This document shows, piece after piece, positions 36,489-49,295 of a stretch of DNA of 51,707 nucleotides. A program made the translations under genes and the position numbers. The notes under the pieces are model-generated. The model saw nothing but the letters and a program-made list of their open reading frames with translations, did not search any database and was not told where the DNA came from. Location of the stretch: positions 1 to 51,707 of the forward strand of contig JADHZE010000002.1 in the NCBI GenBank assembly GCA_026934365.1. The letters run 5' to 3'. Origin of the DNA: Isoptericola sp. QY 916 (GTDB lineage Bacteria; Actinomycetota; Actinomycetes; Actinomycetales; Cellulomonadaceae). Each line of letters starts with the position of its first letter. The stretch's first letter is position 1.

Positions 36489-37589
36489 TCAGTCGCGGAG
36501 CAGGGGCAGCAGCTGCTCGCCCTGGCGGCGGATCTCCTCCAGGTACGGGGTGTCGGAGAGCACGAAGTGCGTGACACCGAGGTCCTGGTAGCGGCGCAGG
36601 GACTTCGCGACGTCGGACGGCGAGCCCACGAGCCACGTGGTCCCGGCGCCGCCGCCGCCGGCCCGGGCGGGGGCGGTGTACAGGTTCTCGTCGAGCACTT
36701 CGCCGCGGGCGGCGAGGTCGAGCAGGCGCTGCTGCCCCACGGCGACGGGCCGGTCCGCCGCTCGATGATCGGCGTCACGGTGGTCGGCGTCGCGCCGCCA
36801 CCCCTGCGCCCCGGACGACGCGGCGAGCTGCGCCACCTTGGCCTCGGCGTCGCGCCAGGCCTCGTCGGTGGTGTCGCGGACGAAGGTGGTGACGCGCAGC
36901 CCGAACTGCAGCGGCGCGTGCTCCCGGCCGACCCGCTCGCTCAGCGCGCGCAGCCGGTCGATCCGCTCGGCGACGCCGTCCAGCGGCTCGCCCCAGAAGA
37001 GCTGCACGTCGGCCTCGGCGGCCGCCACCTCCTCCGCCTCCGGCGACGCGCCGCCGAAGTAGAGCGTCGGGTGCGCGCGCCCTTCGCGGACCACCGGCTT
37101 GAGGGGCAGCGAGGCCGTGTCCGCCCGGTAGTGCTCGCCCTCGTACGTCACGGCGTCCTGCGTCCACAGCCGGCGCACCAGCTGCAGGAACTCGCGGGTC
37201 CGCCCGTACCGCGCCGCCCGGTCGGTGACCGTGTCGCCGTACTGCGCGACGCCGTCCTGCCCGGACACGATGTTGATCCGGACGCGCCCGCCGGTGAGGT
37301 GGTCGAGCGTGGCGGCCGCCGACGCCAGGTGCGCCGGCTGCCAGTAGCCGGGCCGGATCGCGACCAGCGGGTTGAACGTCGTGGTGCGGGCGGCGAGCGC
37401 CGCCGCGACGGTGAAGGTGTCCGGGCGGCCCCAGCCGGTGCCGAGCAGCGCGCCGTCCCAGCCGTGCTCCTCGAGCGCGCGGGCTTGCTCGGTGAGCGTG
37501 TCCAGGCTGTTGTGGTCCGCCGTGACGACGTCGCCGCGGTGGCCGGCGCGCACCTGGTTGGGGATGTACCAGAGGACGTCGGCGCTCAT
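36489..37589 (-). CDS. ssuD: FMNH2-dependent alkanesulfonate monooxygenase
   Basis: A 366-residue luciferase-like monooxygenase that would split sulfonates to aldehyde and sulfite using reduced flavin. Typical SsuD segments are WDGALLGTGWGRPDTFTVAAALAARTTTFNPLVAIRPGYWQPAHLA, GGRVRINIVSGQDGVAQYGD and TLYFGGASPEAEEVAA. A small duplication, DADHRDADHR, lies near residue 270. It is last in ssuA-ssuC-ssuB-monooxygenase-ssuD, coupled by ATGA to the gene before. No flavin reductase (SsuE) is in the operon, so reduced FMN must come from elsewhere. Confidence 0.9.
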   Translation of the reverse strand: MSADVLWYIPNQVRAGHRGDVVTADHNSLDTLTEQARALEEHGWDGALLGTGWGRPDTFTVAAALAARTTTFNPLVAIRPGYWQPAHLASAAATLDHLTGGRVRINIVSGQDGVAQYGDTVTDRAARYGRTREFLQLVRRLWTQDAVTYEGEHYRADTASLPLKPVVREGRAHPTLYFGGASPEAEEVAAAEADVQLFWGEPLDGVAERIDRLRALSERVGREHAPLQFGLRVTTFVRDTTDEAWRDAEAKVAQLAASSGAQGWRRDADHRDADHRAADRPVAVGQQRLLDLAARGEVLDENLYTAPARAGGGGAGTTWLVGSPSDVAKSLRRYQDLGVTHFVLSDTPYLEEIRRQGEQLLPLLRD

Positions 37590-38989
37590 GCCCCCACCCC
37601 CGCGGTCGCCAGCTCGACGGCCTCGACCGACACGCCCGACGACGAGTAGCGGCTCGCCGGCCGCTCCAGCCCGTAGTGCTCGCGCAGCGTGGTGCCCTCG
37701 TAGGCGGTGCGGAACAGGCCGCGCGCCTGAAGGATCGGCACGACGTGCGCCGTGAACTCCTCCAGCCCGCGCGGCAGCACGGCGGGCATGATGTTGAAGC
37801 CGTCCGCCGCCTCGGCGTCGTACCAGTCCTGGAGGGCGTCGGCGACCTGCTCGGGCGTGCCGGCCAGCGTGCGGTGCCCGCGACCGCCGCCCAGGCGGCC
37901 GATCAGCTCGCGGACGGTCAGCCGCTCGCGCCGCGCGAGCTCCACGATCAGCGTGTACCGGCTCTTGGCGCCCTCGATCTCGTCCTCGTCGGGCAGGTCG
38001 GCGGGCAGCTGCCGGTCCAGCGGGAGGTCGTCGGGGTCGACGCGCAGGGTCGCGGCGAGCTGGCGGCGCGCGTACTCGGGCACGATGAGCTCGTCGAGCT
38101 CACGCTCGGCCGCGAGGGCCTCGGCCTCCGTCGACCCGAGCACGGGGACGAGGCCCGGCAGGATCTTGATCCCGTCGGCGTCGCGGCCGACCGCGACGGT
38201 CCGGGCCTTGAGGTCGGCGTAGAACGCCCGGGCGTCGTCGAGCGTCTGGTGCGCGGTGAAGACCGCCTCGGCGTACCGCGCCGCGAGCCCCTTGCCGTCC
38301 TCCGACGACCCGGCCTGCACGATGAGCGGTCGTGCCTGCGGCGTCCTCGGGGTGGTGAGCGCGCCCGCGACGGAGAAGTGCTCGCCGACGTGCCGGGCCG
38401 CGTGGATCTTCGCCGCGTCCGCCCAGACGCCCTGCTCCTTGTCGCCGAGCACGGCGTCGTCGTCCCACGAGTCCCAGAGCTTGGCCGCGACGTCGAGGAA
38501 CTCCGCGGCGCGCTCGTAGCGCACGGCGTGCGCGGGCTGGTCGTCGAGGCCGAAGTTGCGCGCGATGTCGGGCCCGGCCGTCGTCACGACGTTCCACCCG
38601 GCGCGGCCGCCCGAGACGATGTCGATCGACGCGAACCGCCGGGCCAGGTTGTACGGGGAGTTGTAGGTGGTGGACGCCGTCGCGATGAGCCCGATGCGCT
38701 CCGTGACGGCCGCCAGCGCGGTGAGCACGATCAGCGGGTCCAACGACCCGGCGGGGCGGCGTCCGACGTCGCTGCGCAGGCCGGGGCCGTCGGCGAAGAA
38801 GACGGAGTCGAGCAGCCCCTCCTCCGCCGTGCGGGCCAGCCGCTGCAGGTAGGCGATGTTGGTGGACGTGTGCTCCGGGGAGCTCTCCGGCAGCCGCCAC
38901 GACGCCTCGTGGTGGCCGGTGCTCATGAGGAACGCGTTGAGGTGGAACGGTCCGGGGCGGTGGCCGTCGCGGCCGGCGGTGCGGGTCAT
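37586..38989 (-). CDS. NtaA/SnaA/DszA-type FMN-dependent monooxygenase
   Basis: A 467-residue luciferase-like protein of the nitrilotriacetate monooxygenase component A group. It begins with FHLNAFLMSTGHHEASWRLPE, then VFFADGPGLRSDVGRRPAGSLDPLIVLTALAAVTERIGLIATASTTYNSPYNLARRFASIDIVSGGRAGWNVVTT. Its position between ssuB and ssuD, with ATGA overlap on both sides, suggests it oxidises a sulfur compound such as a sulfone or an alternative sulfonate rather than a chelator. It needs FMNH2 from a separate reductase. Start at the ATG 38989. Confidence 0.87.
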   Translation of the reverse strand: MTRTAGRDGHRPGPFHLNAFLMSTGHHEASWRLPESSPEHTSTNIAYLQRLARTAEEGLLDSVFFADGPGLRSDVGRRPAGSLDPLIVLTALAAVTERIGLIATASTTYNSPYNLARRFASIDIVSGGRAGWNVVTTAGPDIARNFGLDDQPAHAVRYERAAEFLDVAAKLWDSWDDDAVLGDKEQGVWADAAKIHAARHVGEHFSVAGALTTPRTPQARPLIVQAGSSEDGKGLAARYAEAVFTAHQTLDDARAFYADLKARTVAVGRDADGIKILPGLVPVLGSTEAEALAAERELDELIVPEYARRQLAATLRVDPDDLPLDRQLPADLPDEDEIEGAKSRYTLIVELARRERLTVRELIGRLGGGRGHRTLAGTPEQVADALQDWYDAEAADGFNIMPAVLPRGLEEFTAHVVPILQARGLFRTAYEGTTLREHYGLERPASRYSSSGVSVEAVELATAGVGA

Positions 38990-39774
38990 GCGGTCACGTC
39001 CTTCCGCTCGACGCCGAGGGCGTCGAGCAGCTCGGTGCGGATGGCGGCGAAGCGGGGATCGGCGGCGTCCCGCGCCCCGTCGAGGTCGATGCGGCGCTCG
39101 ACGGCGATGCGGCCGCGGTCGAGGACGACGACGCGGTCGGCGAGCACGATCGCCTCGTCGACGTCGTGCGTCACGAGCAGCACCGCGGGCCGGTGCCGGT
39201 CGTACAGGTCGCGCAGCAGCTCGTGCATGCGGATACGGGTGAGGGCGTCGAGCGCGCCGAACGGCTCGTCGGCCAGCAGCAGCTGGGGCGAGCGCACGAG
39301 CGAGCGGGCCAGCGACACGCGCTGCTGCTCGCCGCCGGACAGCTCGTTCGGCCACGCCCGCTCCCGGCCGGCCAGGCCGACCTCGGCGAGCGCGGCCCGG
39401 CCCGCGTCGCGGGCGTCCCGGCGGCCCACGCCGTCCAGGCCCAGCACCACGTTGTCGAGGACCCGCGCCCACGGCAGCAGCCGGGAGTCCTGGAACACGA
39501 CGGACACCTGGTCGGGCACGCGCACCTCGCCGACGCCCGCGACGCCGTGGTCCAGACCCGCGAGCGCCCGCAGCAGCGTCGACTTGCCCGAGCCGCTGCG
39601 GCCCAGGATCGCGACGAACTCCCCCAGCGCGAGCTCCAGGTCGAGGTCGTCGAGCACCCGCTCCTCGCCGTACGCGCGCACCAGGCCGCGCACGGCGACG
39701 GCGGGCGCCCCGGCGACGACGTCCGTGCCGGTCGCGACCGGCGTGGCGCTCAGTCCTCCAGCGTGCGTCGCCAT
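38986..39774 (-). CDS. ssuB: Sulfonate ABC transporter ATPase
   Basis: A 262-residue nitrate/sulfonate/taurine-type ABC ATPase: Walker A GRSGSGKS at 58-65, Q-loop VVFQDSRLLPW, signature LSGGEQQRVSLARSL, Walker B LLLADEPFGALD and H-loop LLVTHDVDEA. The ATG at 39774 has AGGAGG 8 nt upstream and lies inside the end of ssuC, a 25-nt overlap. It couples ATP hydrolysis to import through SsuC. Confidence 0.9.
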   Translation of the reverse strand: MATHAGGLSATPVATGTDVVAGAPAVAVRGLVRAYGEERVLDDLDLELALGEFVAILGRSGSGKSTLLRALAGLDHGVAGVGEVRVPDQVSVVFQDSRLLPWARVLDNVVLGLDGVGRRDARDAGRAALAEVGLAGRERAWPNELSGGEQQRVSLARSLVRSPQLLLADEPFGALDALTRIRMHELLRDLYDRHRPAVLLVTHDVDEAIVLADRVVVLDRGRIAVERRIDLDGARDAADPRFAAIRTELLDALGVERKDVTA

Positions 39775-40637
39775 GCGAGCGCCCTCCTCTGCAGCAACCG
39801 GACGGCGGCGTCGGCGGTGAACCCGAGGACGCCGTAGACCACGAGGCCGACGATGATGACCTCGGTCTGGCCGTAGGTGCGGGCGAGCTCCATCATGTAG
39901 CCGATGCCCGCGGTGGCGTTGACCTGCTCGACGACGACCAGCGACAGCAGGGAGCCCGTGACGGCGAACCGCAGGCCGAGCAGGAAGCCGGGCAGCGCGC
40001 CCGGCAGCACCACGCGACGCACGAACTGCGGCCGGCCCAGCCGCACCGTCTCGGCCAGCTCGACGTAGCGGGAGTCGATGGAGCGCAGCCCGTTGTGCGT
40101 GTGCACGTAGATCGGGATGAACACCCCGAGCGCGATGGTGATGACCTTCATCGGCTCGCCGATGCCGAACCACAGGATGAGCAGCGGCAGCAGGGCGAGG
40201 TTCGGGATGGCCCGCTTGACCTGGATCGGGCCGTCGAGCAGCGCGTCGCCCACCCGGCTCAGGCCGGAGGCGAGCGCCAGCACGACGCCCGCCGCGACGC
40301 CCCACGCCAGGCCGAGGGCCGCGCGGGTCAGCGAGACGCCCAGGTTCTCCTGCAGGTCGCCCTTGGCGATCAGGTCGCCGGCGGTCGTGACGACGGTCCA
40401 CGGGGCGCTGAGCACCCGCTGGTCGATGAGGCCGGTGGCGGAGCCGGCCACCCACACGCCGACCAGGACGACGACGCCGAGCAGCCCGGCCGCGGGGATC
40501 GGGCGGCCCAGCCCGAGCCGCCGACCGGCGGGGCGGACGTCGGGCCGTGCCTGGGGCCGGACGCCGGCGATCTGTGCCGCGCCCGGAGACGTGCGGGGCG
40601 CGGTGCCCGCCCTGGTGATGGTGCCGACGGCGGTCAT
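39750..40637 (-). CDS. ssuC: Sulfonate ABC transporter permease
   Basis: A 295-residue permease with a polar N-terminus (about 1-45), then six membrane segments. The BPD signature region is DSRYVELAETVRLGRPQFVRRVVLPGALPGFLLGLRFAVTGSLLSLVVVEQ, typical of SsuC/TauC. The ATG at 40637 overlaps the ssuA stop as ATGA. It forms the membrane channel with SsuB. Confidence 0.9.
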   Translation of the reverse strand: MTAVGTITRAGTAPRTSPGAAQIAGVRPQARPDVRPAGRRLGLGRPIPAAGLLGVVVLVGVWVAGSATGLIDQRVLSAPWTVVTTAGDLIAKGDLQENLGVSLTRAALGLAWGVAAGVVLALASGLSRVGDALLDGPIQVKRAIPNLALLPLLILWFGIGEPMKVITIALGVFIPIYVHTHNGLRSIDSRYVELAETVRLGRPQFVRRVVLPGALPGFLLGLRFAVTGSLLSLVVVEQVNATAGIGYMMELARTYGQTEVIIVGLVVYGVLGFTADAAVRLLQRRALAWRRTLED

Positions 40638-41740
40638 CGGTCGTCCTCCGCCCCGCCCTGGGCCTCGACGCCGGCGGTCTGCGCCGCGACGAACCGCTGG
40701 TCGAAGAGGTCGGCGGCGTCGAGCGGGTCCTCGCCCAGCTCCTCGGCGAGCAGGTCGACCGTCTCCTGCGTGCGGGCGATGCCGTCGGTGAGGTCGGCAG
40801 GGATGTCGGGCACGGCCGCGTGGTCCGTGAGGTACTGGGCGTCCTCCTCGGTCAGGCCCTCGTGCTCGACGTAGTACCCCTGCTTCCACTCCTCGGGGTG
40901 CGCGGCGACCCACACCTTCGCCTTGGCCCACACCTCGACGTACTCGTCGAGGGCGGCGGCCTTGGCCGGGTCCTCGAGCACGGCCTTCGGCGCGTACAGG
41001 TGGCCGGCGTCGTCGCGCAGGCCGTGCTTGACCGACTGCGCGCCGTCGGCCTCGTACTTGGTGAGGTAGCGGAACAGCTGCGTGCCGCCCAGCGGGGCGA
41101 CGTCGACCTCTCCCGCTGCCAGCGCGGTGGAGTACACGTCGCCGGTGCTGGGCAGCTCGACGAGCTCCACGTCGTCCTGGGTGAGGCCGGCCGCGGCCAG
41201 CGCCTTGAGCACCAGCGCGCCCTGCGCCTGGCCGGGGCTGAACGCGATCCGCTTGCCGGCCAGGTCGTCGAGGGAGCCGAGCGCGATGCCGGGCCGCCCG
41301 GCGAGCTCGTAGATCGGCGCCTCCTGCCAGTTCTCCCGGTACTGGGTCGCGATGATCGACACCGGTACGCCGGTCCACGTCGCGTGGATGGGCGGGATGT
41401 CAGCCACGGCGCCGACGTCGAGCGACTCGGCGCGGAACGCCTCGATGGTCTGCGGGCCGCCGGACAGGTTGGCCCACTCCAGGTCGAACGAGAAGTCGTG
41501 CTCGATCTCGTCGCCGGCCAGCTCGAGCGCGACCTCGGTGGTCGGGTCGCCGACGACGAGCGTCGTGCCGTCCGGCACCGCGGACGGCAGCGGGTCGGAG
41601 GCGGCGAGCGTGCCGCCCGGGCCGTCCGCGGCGGCGTCGGCGACGCAGCCGGCGGTGCCGAGCAGTCCGACGAGGCCGACGACGGCGGCTGCCGTCCGTC
41701 GGGCACCGCGGGCGCGGCGGAAGGGGATCGTTCGGGGCAT
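40634..41740 (-). CDS. ssuA: Sulfonate-binding lipoprotein
   Basis: A 368-residue NMT1/SsuA-type binding protein. The signal peptide ends in lipobox GTAGC (Cys at about 32). The family pattern includes FSFDLEWANLSGGPQTIEAFRAESLDVGAVADIPPIHA, DLAGKRIAFSPGQAQGALVLKALAAAGL and LPSTGDVYSTALAAGEVDVAPLGGTQLFRYL. The start ATG at 41740 has AGAGGA about 7 nt upstream. It is the first main gene of the ssu operon and is preceded by 122 nt of leader and the cysteine-rich small ORF at 41863-41970, which probably controls it. Confidence 0.9.
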   Translation of the reverse strand: MPRTIPFRRARGARRTAAAVVGLVGLLGTAGCVADAAADGPGGTLAASDPLPSAVPDGTTLVVGDPTTEVALELAGDEIEHDFSFDLEWANLSGGPQTIEAFRAESLDVGAVADIPPIHATWTGVPVSIIATQYRENWQEAPIYELAGRPGIALGSLDDLAGKRIAFSPGQAQGALVLKALAAAGLTQDDVELVELPSTGDVYSTALAAGEVDVAPLGGTQLFRYLTKYEADGAQSVKHGLRDDAGHLYAPKAVLEDPAKAAALDEYVEVWAKAKVWVAAHPEEWKQGYYVEHEGLTEEDAQYLTDHAAVPDIPADLTDGIARTQETVDLLAEELGEDPLDAADLFDQRFVAAQTAGVEAQGGAEDDR

Positions 41741-41862
41741 GGCGGGGTCCTCTCGGGGCGTGCGGGGGTACGCCACGTCACCCGACCGCGCGACGGCGGA
41801 CGGGGCGGTGGTCTCGAGCGGGTTCTGCTGCCGGGAAGGCGGAGGCGACGGCGTGCGTCGGG

Positions 41863-41970
41863 TCAGCGGCGACAGCGGCGACAGGGCCGACAGCCCCGGC
41901 GGGCGCACGGCTCGACGGCCCCCGCGGCGCGGGTGCCCGGGGACCGGAGTCCGTTCGTGTCGGCGTGCAT
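41863..41970 (-). CDS. Cysteine-rich leader peptide of the ssu operon (candidate attenuator)
   Basis: A 35-codon ORF whose last 14 residues read CARRGCRPCRRCRR, with Cys at 22, 27, 30 and 33 directly before the stop. The first 21 residues are nondescript. A TACCTT -10 lies seven bases before the ATG, so ORF and transcript probably start together (leaderless). It ends 122 nt before ssuA on the same strand. Cys-rich leaderless upstream ORFs acting as cysteine-responsive attenuators of sulfur genes are known in mycobacteria; slow decoding at low Cys-tRNA would permit ssu expression. A GCACGCC heptamer just after the stop (41850-41856) recurs at 41757-41763, and either could pair with GGCGT at 41770-41774. 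That switch is speculation. Confidence 0.72.
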   Translation of the reverse strand: MHADTNGLRSPGTRAAGAVEPCARRGCRPCRRCRR

Positions 41971-41977
41971 GGCGGGG

Positions 41978-41983
41978 AAGGTA
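41978..41983 (-). promoter_or_regulatory. Leaderless -10 of the ssu leader ORF
   Basis: TACCTT, a TANNNT hexamer followed by seven bases and the ATG of the Cys-rich ORF. The region 41741-42147 holds no other gene apart from this ORF and the clpC terminator. Confidence 0.55.
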
Positions 41984-42072
41984 GGCGCCGCGCAAGCCCC
42001 GCGCGAGAGTTCCTCGGAAAGTCTCACGATGCGGGACCAGAATTCAAGACGTCGCCCCCGACGCCCGCGGGC

Positions 42073-42119
42073 ACGACGAAGGCCCCGGACCCTGTGAGGG
42101 GGTCCGGGGCCTTCGTCGT
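42073..42119 (-). terminator. 20-bp perfect hairpin terminator of clpC
   Basis: Arms 42073-42092 and 42100-42119 pair perfectly with a 7-nt loop, 28 bp beyond the clpC stop. Strong GC stem without a U-tract. It insulates clpC from the ssu promoter region. Confidence 0.85.
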
Positions 42120-42147
42120 CGACCGTCAGGTCGGTGGGCTCAGCGAG

Positions 42148-44715
<2,568 letters not shown>

Positions 44716-46648: not shown

Positions 46649-47866
46649 TCAGGCGAGCGCCTGCCCGAGGTCGGCGACCAGGTCCTCGACGTCCTCGATC
46701 CCGACGGACAGGCGGACGAGGTCGTCGGGCACCTCGAGCGACGTGCCCGCGACCGAGCCGTGCGTCATGCGCCCCGGGTGCTCGACCAGGGACTCCACCC
46801 CGCCCAGGGACTCCGCGAGCGTGAACACCTGCGTGCGCGCGCACACGTCGAGAGCCTTCGCCTCGCTGCCCGCCCGGAACGACACCATGCCGCCGAACCC
46901 GGTCATCTGGCGGGCGGCGACGTCGTGCCCCGGGTGCGACGCGAGGCCCGGGTAGAGCACCTCGGTCACGGCCGGGTGGTCGACGAGGAAGGCCGCGACC
47001 GCGGCCGCGTTGGCCTGGTGGCGGTCCATCCGGACCGCGAGCGTCTTGAGCCCGCGCAGGGTCAGCCACGCGTCGAACGGTCCCGCGACGGCCCCCGACG
47101 AGTTCTGGTGGAAGCCGACGGCGCCCGCCACGTCCGTGCCGCCCGCGGGCGACTCGAGCCCGCCCGGCAGCACCGCGCCCGCCGCGACGACGAGCGCTCC
47201 CCCGACGACGTCGCTGTGCCCGCCGATGTACTTGGTCGTCGAGTGCACGACGACGTCCGCGCCGAGCGCGAGCGGCTGCTGCAAGTACGGGGTGGCGAAG
47301 GTGTTGTCGACGACGAGCAGCGCGCCGGCGTCCCGCGCGACGCCGGCGAGCGCAGCGACGTCGCTGATGCCGAGCAGCGGGTTGGTCGGCGTCTCGACCC
47401 ACAGCACCCTGGTCTCGGGCCGGACCGCGGCCCGGACCGCCTCGACGTCGGACAGGTCGACCGGGGTGTGCGCGATCCCCCACGGCCCGAAGACCCGAGC
47501 GATCAGCCGGTACGTGCCGCCGTACGCGTCGTCGGGCACGATCACGTGGTCGCCCGGGCGCAGCACCGCGCGCAGCAGTGTGTCCTCCGCCGCCAGGCCG
47601 GAGGCGAACGCGAAGCCCTGCGCCGGGTCCAGGCCCCCGGACTCCGCCGCCGCGAGCGCCTCCTCCAGCGCGGTGCGCGTCGGGTTGGCGGAGCGGGAGT
47701 ACTCGTACCCGCCGCGCAGGCCGCCCACGCCGTCCTGCTTGTACGTGGAGACCTGGTGGATCGGCGGCACGACGGCGCCCGTCGTCGGGTCCGGGTCCTG
47801 GCCCGCGTGGATGGCGCGGGTCGAGAAGCCGGTGCGGGTCCAGTCGTTGTGCTCGCTGTTGCTCAC
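46649..47866 (-). CDS. metB: Cystathionine gamma-synthase / lyase-type PLP enzyme
   Basis: A 405-residue Cys/Met metabolism PLP enzyme. It opens GFSTRAIHAGQDPDPTTGAVVPPIHQVSTYKQ, with YEYSRSANPTRTALEEALAAAE, LLVVDNTFATPYLQQPLALGADVVVHSTTKYIGGHSDVVGG (PLP Lys at about 210), and the C-terminal SLGGVESLVEHPGRMTHGS. It joins O-acetyl- or O-succinyl-homoserine to cysteine, or in the reverse route splits cystathionine. The GTG start is supported by a leaderless -10. It follows the cystathionine beta-synthase gene after 25 bp, an arrangement that favours cysteine formation from homocysteine, so a gamma-lyase role is also possible. Confidence 0.9.
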   Translation of the reverse strand: MSNSEHNDWTRTGFSTRAIHAGQDPDPTTGAVVPPIHQVSTYKQDGVGGLRGGYEYSRSANPTRTALEEALAAAESGGLDPAQGFAFASGLAAEDTLLRAVLRPGDHVIVPDDAYGGTYRLIARVFGPWGIAHTPVDLSDVEAVRAAVRPETRVLWVETPTNPLLGISDVAALAGVARDAGALLVVDNTFATPYLQQPLALGADVVVHSTTKYIGGHSDVVGGALVVAAGAVLPGGLESPAGGTDVAGAVGFHQNSSGAVAGPFDAWLTLRGLKTLAVRMDRHQANAAAVAAFLVDHPAVTEVLYPGLASHPGHDVAARQMTGFGGMVSFRAGSEAKALDVCARTQVFTLAESLGGVESLVEHPGRMTHGSVAGTSLEVPDDLVRLSVGIEDVEDLVADLGQALA

Positions 47867-47872
47867 CCGGTC

Positions 47873-47878
47873 AGACTA
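47873..47878 (-). promoter_or_regulatory. Leaderless -10 of the cystathionine gamma-synthase gene
   Basis: TAGTCT-GACCGG-GTG: a -10 six bases before the GTG. It lies between this gene and the beta-synthase gene, so metB may have its own promoter. Confidence 0.5.
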
Positions 47879-47891
47879 CGCACGAGCGTGG

Positions 47892-49295
47892 TCACCGGCC
47901 CGCGACGAACCCGAGGAGGTCGTGGCGGGTGAGGACGCCGACGGGGTCGCCGTCCTCGACGACGAGCAGCGCGTCGGCGTCGGTGAGCGCGGCGCGCACG
48001 GCCTCCACGCCCTCGCCGGCGCCGATGAGCGGCAGGCGGGCCTCCATGTGCGCGTCGACACGGTCGGCGAGGGTGGCGCGGCCGGAGAACACGGCGTCGA
48101 GCAGCGCGCGCTCGGTGACCGACCCCGCGACCTCGCCGATCTTCACGGGCGGCTCCGCCCCGACGACGGGCATCTGCGAGACGCCGTACTCCCGCAGGAT
48201 CTCGATGGCGTCGCGCACCGTCTCGCTGGGATGGGTGTGCACCAGGTCGGGCAGCCGCCCGTCCTTGGCCCGCAGGACGTCGCCCGCGGTGACGCCCTCC
48301 TCGTCGGGCAGGAACCCGTACGACCGCATCCACGTGTCGGAGAAGATCTTCGACAGGTAGCCGCGACCGCCGTCGGGCAGCAGGACGACGATCACGGCCT
48401 CCGCCGCCGCCGCCGCGTCCTCGTCCTCGAGCCGGCGCGCGAGCCGCAGCGCCGCCTCCACCGCCATCCCGCACGACCCGCCCACGAGCAGGCCCTCCTC
48501 GCGCGCGAGCCGGCGCGTCATGGCGAAGGAGTCCGCGTCGGTGACGGCGATGACCTCGTCCGGCACGGTCGGGTCGTAGGCGCCCGGCCAGAAGTCCTCG
48601 CCGACGCCCTCCACCAGGTACGGCCGGCCGTCGCCGCCGGAGTAGACCGAGCCCGCCGGGTCGGCGCCGACGACCCGCACGGGGCCGCCGTCGGCCCGCT
48701 CCGCCGAGACCTCCTTGAGGTAGCGGCCGGTGCCGGTGATCGTGCCGCCCGTGCCGACGCCCGCGACGAAGTGGGTCACGCGGCCGTCGGTGTCCGTCCA
48801 TACCTCGGGCCCGGTGGACTCGTAGTGCGACAGCGGGCCGTTCGGGTTGGCGTACTGGTTCGGCTTCCAGGCCCCGTCGATCTCCTGCACGAGCCGGTCG
48901 GAGACCGAGTAGTAGGAGTCGGGGTGGTCGGGCGGGACGGCGGTCGGCGTCACGACGACGCGCGCGCCGTACGCCCGTAGCACGTCGCGCTTGTCCTCGC
49001 TCACCTTGTCCGGGCAGACGAAGACGCAGTCGTAGCCCTTCCGCTGCGCGACGAGCGCGAGGCCCACGCCGGTGTTGCCCGACGTCGGCTCGACGATCGT
49101 GCCGCCGGGCCGCAGCTCCCCGGACGCCTCCGCCGCCTCGACCATCTTCAGCGCGATGCGGTCCTTGACCGACCCGCCGGGGTTCACGTACTCGACCTTG
49201 GCGAGGATCGTCGCGCTGAGGCCGTCCGTGACACGGGTGAGCCGCACGAGCGGGGTGTGCCCGACGAGCTCCGAGATGTGCTCCGCGTATCTCAT
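47892..49295 (-). CDS. Cystathionine beta-synthase
   Basis: A 467-residue fold-type II PLP enzyme with a C-terminal CBS-domain pair. PLP Lys44 is in NPGGSVKDRIALK, the substrate loop is PTSGNTGVGLAL (about 69-80), and the cofactor phosphate loop is GVGTGGTITGTGRYL. The regulatory CBS pair spans about 345-467 (TVRDAIEILREYGVSQMPVV; ALTDADALLVVEDGDPVGVLTRHDLLGFV). It condenses homocysteine with serine (or O-acetylserine) to cystathionine. No heme-binding N-terminal extension. A CATGAT element six bases before the ATG may be its leaderless -10. It forms a transsulfuration pair with the next gene. Confidence 0.93.
   Translation of the reverse strand: MRYAEHISELVGHTPLVRLTRVTDGLSATILAKVEYVNPGGSVKDRIALKMVEAAEASGELRPGGTIVEPTSGNTGVGLALVAQRKGYDCVFVCPDKVSEDKRDVLRAYGARVVVTPTAVPPDHPDSYYSVSDRLVQEIDGAWKPNQYANPNGPLSHYESTGPEVWTDTDGRVTHFVAGVGTGGTITGTGRYLKEVSAERADGGPVRVVGADPAGSVYSGGDGRPYLVEGVGEDFWPGAYDPTVPDEVIAVTDADSFAMTRRLAREEGLLVGGSCGMAVEAALRLARRLEDEDAAAAAEAVIVVLLPDGGRGYLSKIFSDTWMRSYGFLPDEEGVTAGDVLRAKDGRLPDLVHTHPSETVRDAIEILREYGVSQMPVVGAEPPVKIGEVAGSVTERALLDAVFSGRATLADRVDAHMEARLPLIGAGEGVEAVRAALTDADALLVVEDGDPVGVLTRHDLLGFVAGR

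Follow-up and report, generated by a model that had tools for sequence, protein, structure and literature searches.

A candidate leaderless cysteine leader peptide upstream of a sulfonate-type operon in Isoptericola and related Cellulomonadaceae

How might a bacterium tie the use of sulfonates to its own supply of cysteine? This question is raised by a 51,707-nucleotide stretch of DNA from Isoptericola sp. QY 916 (contig JADHZE010000002.1, here called the window), in which a short upstream open reading frame (uORF) with several Cys codons precedes an operon of the ssu type. By analogy with known leader peptides, we consider it very probable that this uORF encodes a leaderless leader peptide through which cysteine is sensed in cis, such that expression of the ssu operon would rise when cysteine is low. 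The rationale for proposing a cysteine sensor carried by the ribosome is that the Cys codons are conserved near the stop codon, next to sulfur genes.

The uORF and its locus

The operon is read from the minus strand, beginning with a gene for an ssuA-like substrate-binding protein (40634–41740), which passes the Pfam cut-off for NMT1 and matches the SsuA family model TIGR01728 at 1.3e-23, below its curated cut-off. It is followed by an ssuC-like permease (39750–40631, start approximate; SsuC model best, below cut-off), an ssuB-like ATPase (38986–39789, start approximate; sulfonate ATPase model best, below cut-off), an NtaA/DmoA-family FMN-dependent monooxygenase (37586–39004, start approximate; TIGR03860 over cut-off) and an SsuD-like relative of the alkanesulfonate monooxygenases (36489–37589), a member of the luciferase-like fold family for which NCBIfam alkanesulfonate monooxygenase models are best at 1.4e-70, below their cut-offs. 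Because the ssuA, ssuC, ssuB and ssuD models rank first or nearly so and yet fall under their curated cut-offs, a sulfonate or sulfone is named only as the likely substrate.

A preliminary description of this DNA had placed a 35-codon ORF seven bases after a TACCTT hexamer and 122 nt before ssuA, with four Cys codons among its last 14, and both observations are borne out on the minus strand. The uORF occupies 41863–41970, with its ATG at 41970–41968 and its TGA at 41865–41863, and encodes the peptide MHADTNGLRSPGTRAAGAVEPCARRGCRPCRRCRR, whose C-terminal end is CARRGCRPCRRCRR; the Cys codons are TGC, TGT, TGT and TGT, all within the last 14. The -10 element TACCTT (AAGGTA on the forward strand) lies at 41978–41983, 7 nt before the ATG, and no Shine-Dalgarno sequence is seen before that codon. 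From this promoter spacing, the uORF would start without a leader of its own. The interval between its stop and the ssuA ATG at 41740 (41741–41862, 122 nt; hereafter the leader) is C-rich and G-poor, and the likely Shine-Dalgarno sequence of ssuA, GAGAGGA, lies near its end at 41748–41754.

Farther upstream, an inverted repeat that reads GTCCCG-CATCG-TGAGAC on the minus strand (42021–42037, strand not assigned) is a candidate operator and possibly a transcription-factor site, and its position presumably resembles that of LysR-type activator sites. Related hexamers are found in relatives, where 23 of 33 leaders carry one at a near-fixed 55–59 nt before the uORF ATG, a raw count without a background estimate. 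The gene upstream of the uORF on the same strand, which we take from its sequence to be clpC, is followed by a GC-rich inverted repeat, recognized by eye. Rfam gave no match anywhere in the window at gathering scores. Adjoining genes for cystathionine gamma-synthase and cystathionine beta-synthase lie a few kb from the ssu operon (46649–49295, minus strand); a scan of both strands of the window found no uORF of the ssu type before them. A second match to one 15-mer in this genome (C20, L116) gave no uORF in the scans.

Could such a uORF arise by chance? The window is GC-rich and long overlapping open frames are abundant in it, as would be expected if the uORF were a chance ORF, but it is the sole short ORF on either strand of the window with a [TC]ANNNT hexamer 5–9 nt upstream and at least three Cys codons among its last 15. 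The background was taken from 857,152 strand-bases, made up of the window plus 60 loci fetched from relatives, with the ssu uORFs, and the sir and metQ uORFs described below, set aside by peptide. At the cut of at least three Cys, only two background matches were found, one of which is the weak sir uORF of genome G102, versus 24 of 33 ssu leaders at an equal cut; with at least two Cys there were 11 background matches (~0.008 per 600 nt) versus 31 of 33. These counts, together with the conservation of the uORF, contradict a chance origin, to which we give almost no credence. As a separate search, a DNA pattern for Cys-rich ends was tried in six genomes and discarded, as its 78 matches do not stand out alone against 127 in a reversed control; single matches of this pattern beside cysH pointed to the sir uORF.

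Conservation in the Cellulomonadaceae

The check that the preliminary description itself proposed was an alignment of the regions upstream of ssuA in related genomes. Among 221 genomes of the family, this ssuA was found in 38 from seven genera, and all 38 were examined. In 33 of the 38, the sequence immediately before ssuA holds a short ORF with two or more Cys codons in its final 15. One contig (G223) holds only 99 bases before ssuA and its upstream region is therefore unreadable, such that the uORF is conserved in 33 of 37 readable genomes, or in 35 of 37 when two distant uORFs are included; with these, it occurs in all seven genera that have this ssuA. In the two distant cases, G078 and G047 of one genus, the uORF VSTFTCPCCRR begins at a GTG codon placed ten bases past TAGCCT and lies ~2.1 kb ahead of ssuA. 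Genes for a 2OG-Fe(II) oxygenase and a flavin reductase lie between the two on the same strand and are taken as the front of the operon in these genomes. No uORF was found upstream of ssuA in G091 and G290. In G091 a -10-like hexamer lies 6 nt ahead of ssuA itself, and uORF and leader were therefore lost together. Three more distant ssuA matches of the same order gave no uORF, and outside the family a comparable uORF was found at one of 27 loci with an ssuA-like gene. One locus outside the family, L236, has before its ssuA-like gene a uORF with eight Cys codons and the end CCPCCCC. L028, from a record named Sphaerisporangium cinnabarinum ATCC 31213, is a Cellulosimicrobium-like locus, and the name of this record may be wrong.

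What is conserved is narrow. All 31 distinct peptides, when aligned, share the final Cys; a second Cys, three codons earlier, and the Arg that follows are each kept at 90% or more, against a mean column identity of 30%. At least three Cys codons are present among the last 15 in 26 of the 33 uORFs and at least four in 8. N-termini are unlike between genera and peptide lengths range from 19 to 44 aa; what persists across genera is Cys and Arg before the stop and a spacing of 6–8 nt from the -10 element to the start codon. A [TC]ANNNT hexamer is found at that spacing in 31 of 33 leaders, and the remaining two (G274 and G278) have a similar stretch at the -10 position that does not match the pattern. 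The proposal of a Cys-rich leaderless leader on a sulfonate operon outside the mycobacteria thus holds up, in that frame, start spacing, Cys codons and position are all kept in relatives, and the Arg codons noted as interleaved with Cys recur in their uORFs. Because little beyond the Cys-Arg end is kept, this sensor would be invisible to present family models.

Codon choice and similar uORFs on other sulfur operons

The Cys codons themselves are unusual. TGT makes up 86 of 113 Cys codons in the ssu uORFs, versus 4 of 63 in genes of the window and 39 of 492 in genes of the fetched loci, a comparison for which Fisher values are only indicative because related genomes are not independent and the background genes were called by GC3 and length. 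Tallied by genus, the TGT share is above background in all seven, with extremes of 2 of 6 and 8 of 8. One reading is that a rare TGT codon makes for a sharper ribosome pause, and another is that the bias reflects a constraint on the RNA.

Similar uORFs precede two other sulfur operons. A uORF of the MTTAAHRLLVTTRHEMPACVRRSMRSCLCCCR type lies before a sulfite-reductase gene (sir) upstream of cysH in this genome, in Krasilnikoviella flava and in others; 9 of 12 genomes in which sir was found by motif have it, G102 weakly, and it is present in G008 too. It was not found in G043, G050 and G159, nor in G129 (locus L196) and G155 (locus L198). Such poly-Cys uORFs before sulfite reductase and cysH were seen at L115 (3218–3316, minus strand), L118, L133, L134, L126, L151, L127 and L124, and that of L115 contains a palindromic CTCGTGACGACTCGTCACGAG stretch. 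By eye, GGTCCTC lies opposite a GAGGAC nearer the start codon in the sir leaders of L115, L118, L133, L126 and L151, a candidate anti-Shine-Dalgarno pairing that does not appear in L134 and L127. Of 30 sir loci taken from the class, in which no mycobacteria-type locus was present, two pass the cut of at least three Cys, both of the window's genus. A further three pass only at two or more (L212, L215 and L217), and the L212 and L215 uORFs, with the motif HVDLCR or HVDFCH, match NCBIfam leader-peptide models below their cut-offs.

The second case is metQ (PF03180). Of 15 genomes, 11 have a Cys-containing uORF before it, the present genome among them; none was seen in G050, G129, G155 and G159. 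The tripeptide RMC stands near the stop in 8 of the 11. Cys and Met codons are mixed, with RMC near the stop, at L135, L136, L137, L141, L142, L147, L148 and L149, and several of the metQ-uORF leaders share a GCTGATGGCCGTGGC-like stretch. Going by these codons, the metQ uORFs perhaps sense both amino acids. TGT accounts for 20 of 41 Cys codons in the sir uORFs (8 leaders) and for 9 of 38 in the metQ uORFs (10 leaders).

The occurrence of other peptides with Cys-rich ends before sir and metQ bears on whether the product of the ssu uORF matters. Retention of an open frame in many species, with the Cys-Arg end as its conserved part, would suit a small peptide, rich in Cys and Arg, with a function in trans such as metal binding. 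However, N-termini and lengths that vary as widely as described above are hard to reconcile with such a product, the sir and metQ peptides argue against it as well, and the use of a rare codon suits a sensor better; we regard a trans-acting peptide as very improbable. Returning to the sensor, the more interesting observations are which operons carry such uORFs and how their Cys codons are biased. We speculate, and hold it unlikely as a whole, that a family-wide network exists in which unlike uORFs tie at least three operons, for sulfonate use, sulfate reduction and metQ-type uptake, to charged Cys-tRNA through UGU, with C-rich leaders signaling to Rho and the metQ branch reading both Cys and Met.

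The output step

How would the ribosome on the uORF control ssuA? In the mechanism that we propose, transcription would begin at or beside the uORF ATG and ribosomes would initiate directly on that codon. When charged Cys-tRNA is short, a ribosome would stall on the Cys codons that precede the stop (the rare UGU in three cases of four), and this pause would allow the downstream genes to be expressed, such that sulfonate uptake and desulfonation rise at low cysteine. When cysteine is ample, ribosomes would complete the uORF, the 122-nt C-rich leader would lie bare and expression would go down, possibly via Rho-dependent termination or a closed ribosome site. A classical attenuator is not supported, as no intrinsic terminator (hairpin plus T run) is found in 41700–42160.

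Rho is a candidate because the leader is C-rich and G-poor. Completion of the uORF would open the leader to Rho and transcription would stop before ssuA, and a ribosome paused near the stop would block Rho. The excess of C over G, expressed as (C-G)/length with the last 14 nt excluded, is 0.213 in the window's own leader, a value that 0.6% of sliding windows across the window attain. All 33 leaders have such an excess (mean 0.247, lowest 0.161), versus 0.034 in 90 control upstream regions, although p-values for leader composition, as for codon bias, are overstated because the genomes are related and hence not independent. The sir and metQ leaders are C-rich too, with means of 0.18 over 100 nt after the uORF stop, and the lack of an intrinsic terminator is also consistent with Rho. 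Rho was proposed for mycobacterial cys leaders in the available text of Seliverstov 2005 (PMC1262725), where the prediction is called weak. On the other side, this is evidence from composition alone, 3.3% of the 90 control regions reach the value of the own leader, and a paused ribosome would shield just part of 122 nt. We therefore consider control by Rho a serious possibility, short of an even chance.

The alternative is control of translation, in which the leader would fold over the ssuA ribosome site and be freed by a ribosome on the Cys codons, as in Mycobacterium smegmatis; this output is attributed to the mycobacterial relatives in the consulted part of PMC13236596. A small hairpin at the ssuA Shine-Dalgarno sequence in some genera would fit, with a CUCUC/GAGAG stem and a 3-nt loop in all eight g8 leaders. 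However, the computed accessibility of this site does not change consistently when a ribosome is placed on the Cys codons, being 0.32 with no ribosome, 0.32 at an early Cys, 0.32 at the last Cys and 0.31 at the stop across the 33 leaders. The own leader goes from 0.54 free to 0.61–0.63 with a ribosome on the Cys codons, and K. flava goes in the opposite direction, from 0.53 to 0.30–0.32. Alignment folding by genus or subgroup, done without a control run, gave 2–10 double-change pairs of 30–81, with 10–35 broken cells in five of six groups. A particular switch had also been suggested, in which two GCACGCC copies, one just after the uORF stop and one before ssuA, compete for a single GGCGT. Both copies and the lone GGCGT are present in the window, but the competition between them is unsupported: K. 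flava, the nearest relative found (ssuA 93% identical), retains GGCGT and the 3' copy but has no 5' copy, so that this pairing is absent there and the switch was rejected. A translational output is also a fair possibility, a little less likely than Rho. Whichever step the proposed sensor uses, nature supplies 31 distinct peptides and two losses with which the choice between Rho and ribosome-site control can be put to a direct test.

Relation to known cysteine leader peptides

Canestrari is said to have reported, in 2020, cysteine-responsive attenuation in mycobacteria. As a positive control for our scans, mycobacteria-type genomes with sir were used, namely 13 of 24, those with coordinates among the matches listed. 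A uORF with RRHVD or RRHID and at least two Cys precedes sir in 13 of 13, 6–7 nt after a -10 element. Three of four peptides tested pass NCBIfam Ms4527A, which suggests that these genomes are mycobacteria. TGT makes up 30 of 44 Cys codons in these 13 leaders, a tally for which no genome-wide background was taken. TGT is thus frequent in both mycobacterial leaders and ssu uORFs, and may serve as a simple mark for finding more leaders.

At E up to 10 the window peptide had no match among the NCBIfam models, and the ssu uORF peptides (29 scanned; two are <20 aa) matched no NCBIfam leader model at E up to 1; a single one of the 29 hit an unrelated model by chance, at E 0.15. PF07210, which we take to be a mycobacterial Cys-leader target, matched no locus, and this result is uninformative because the controls gave no match either. 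The models NF042933 (Ms5788A), NF042936 (Ms4527A) and NF042934 (putative leader peptide) resemble the ssu uORFs in function by name, whereas their curated cut-offs are not reached by the ssu peptides. A literature search that covered few subscription papers returned no account of such leaders for ssu or for the Cellulomonadaceae.

Cys-rich leaderless uORFs are described in mycobacteria in the portion of Shell 2015 (PMC4633059) that was consulted, and the available text of PMC9031893 gives a summary of attenuation by such ORFs in response to cysteine in M. smegmatis. Like the polycysteine leaderless ORFs of PMC4633059, as far as that text goes, the ssu uORFs are short, start 6–8 nt after a -10 element with no Shine-Dalgarno sequence, carry Cys near the stop and stand before sulfur genes. 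They differ from the mycobacterial leaders in family, in their sulfonate operon and in the absence of an NCBIfam model match, and the Cys of the window peptide stand singly among Arg and Pro and not in a run; a response to cysteine would here follow by analogy. Cys leader peptides were also predicted, in the accessible part of Seliverstov 2005 (PMC1262725), in Mycobacterium, in Propionibacterium acnes and for Bifidobacterium longum cbs. Those leaders likewise have Cys near the stop, theirs as runs, and no obvious terminator, whereas they belong to other genes and lineages, with no sulfonate operon among those in that part of the paper. The metQ uORFs found here resemble 'metL' of Streptomyces lividans, which precedes metNIQ, an operon other than ssu; according to the text of PMC8079986 available to us, its measured start is leaderless, it ends in CMCRRMCAF, and its authors assign it to methionine.

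Judged from its sequence, the ssu uORF is of the same kind as these Cys-rich leaderless leaders and lies outside the catalogued sequence families. This kind is already known in actinobacteria, with experimental demonstration so far in mycobacteria, and what is new is the lineage and the sulfonate operon, such that the range of Cys-rich leader peptides would come to include sulfonate use and a further actinobacterial family.
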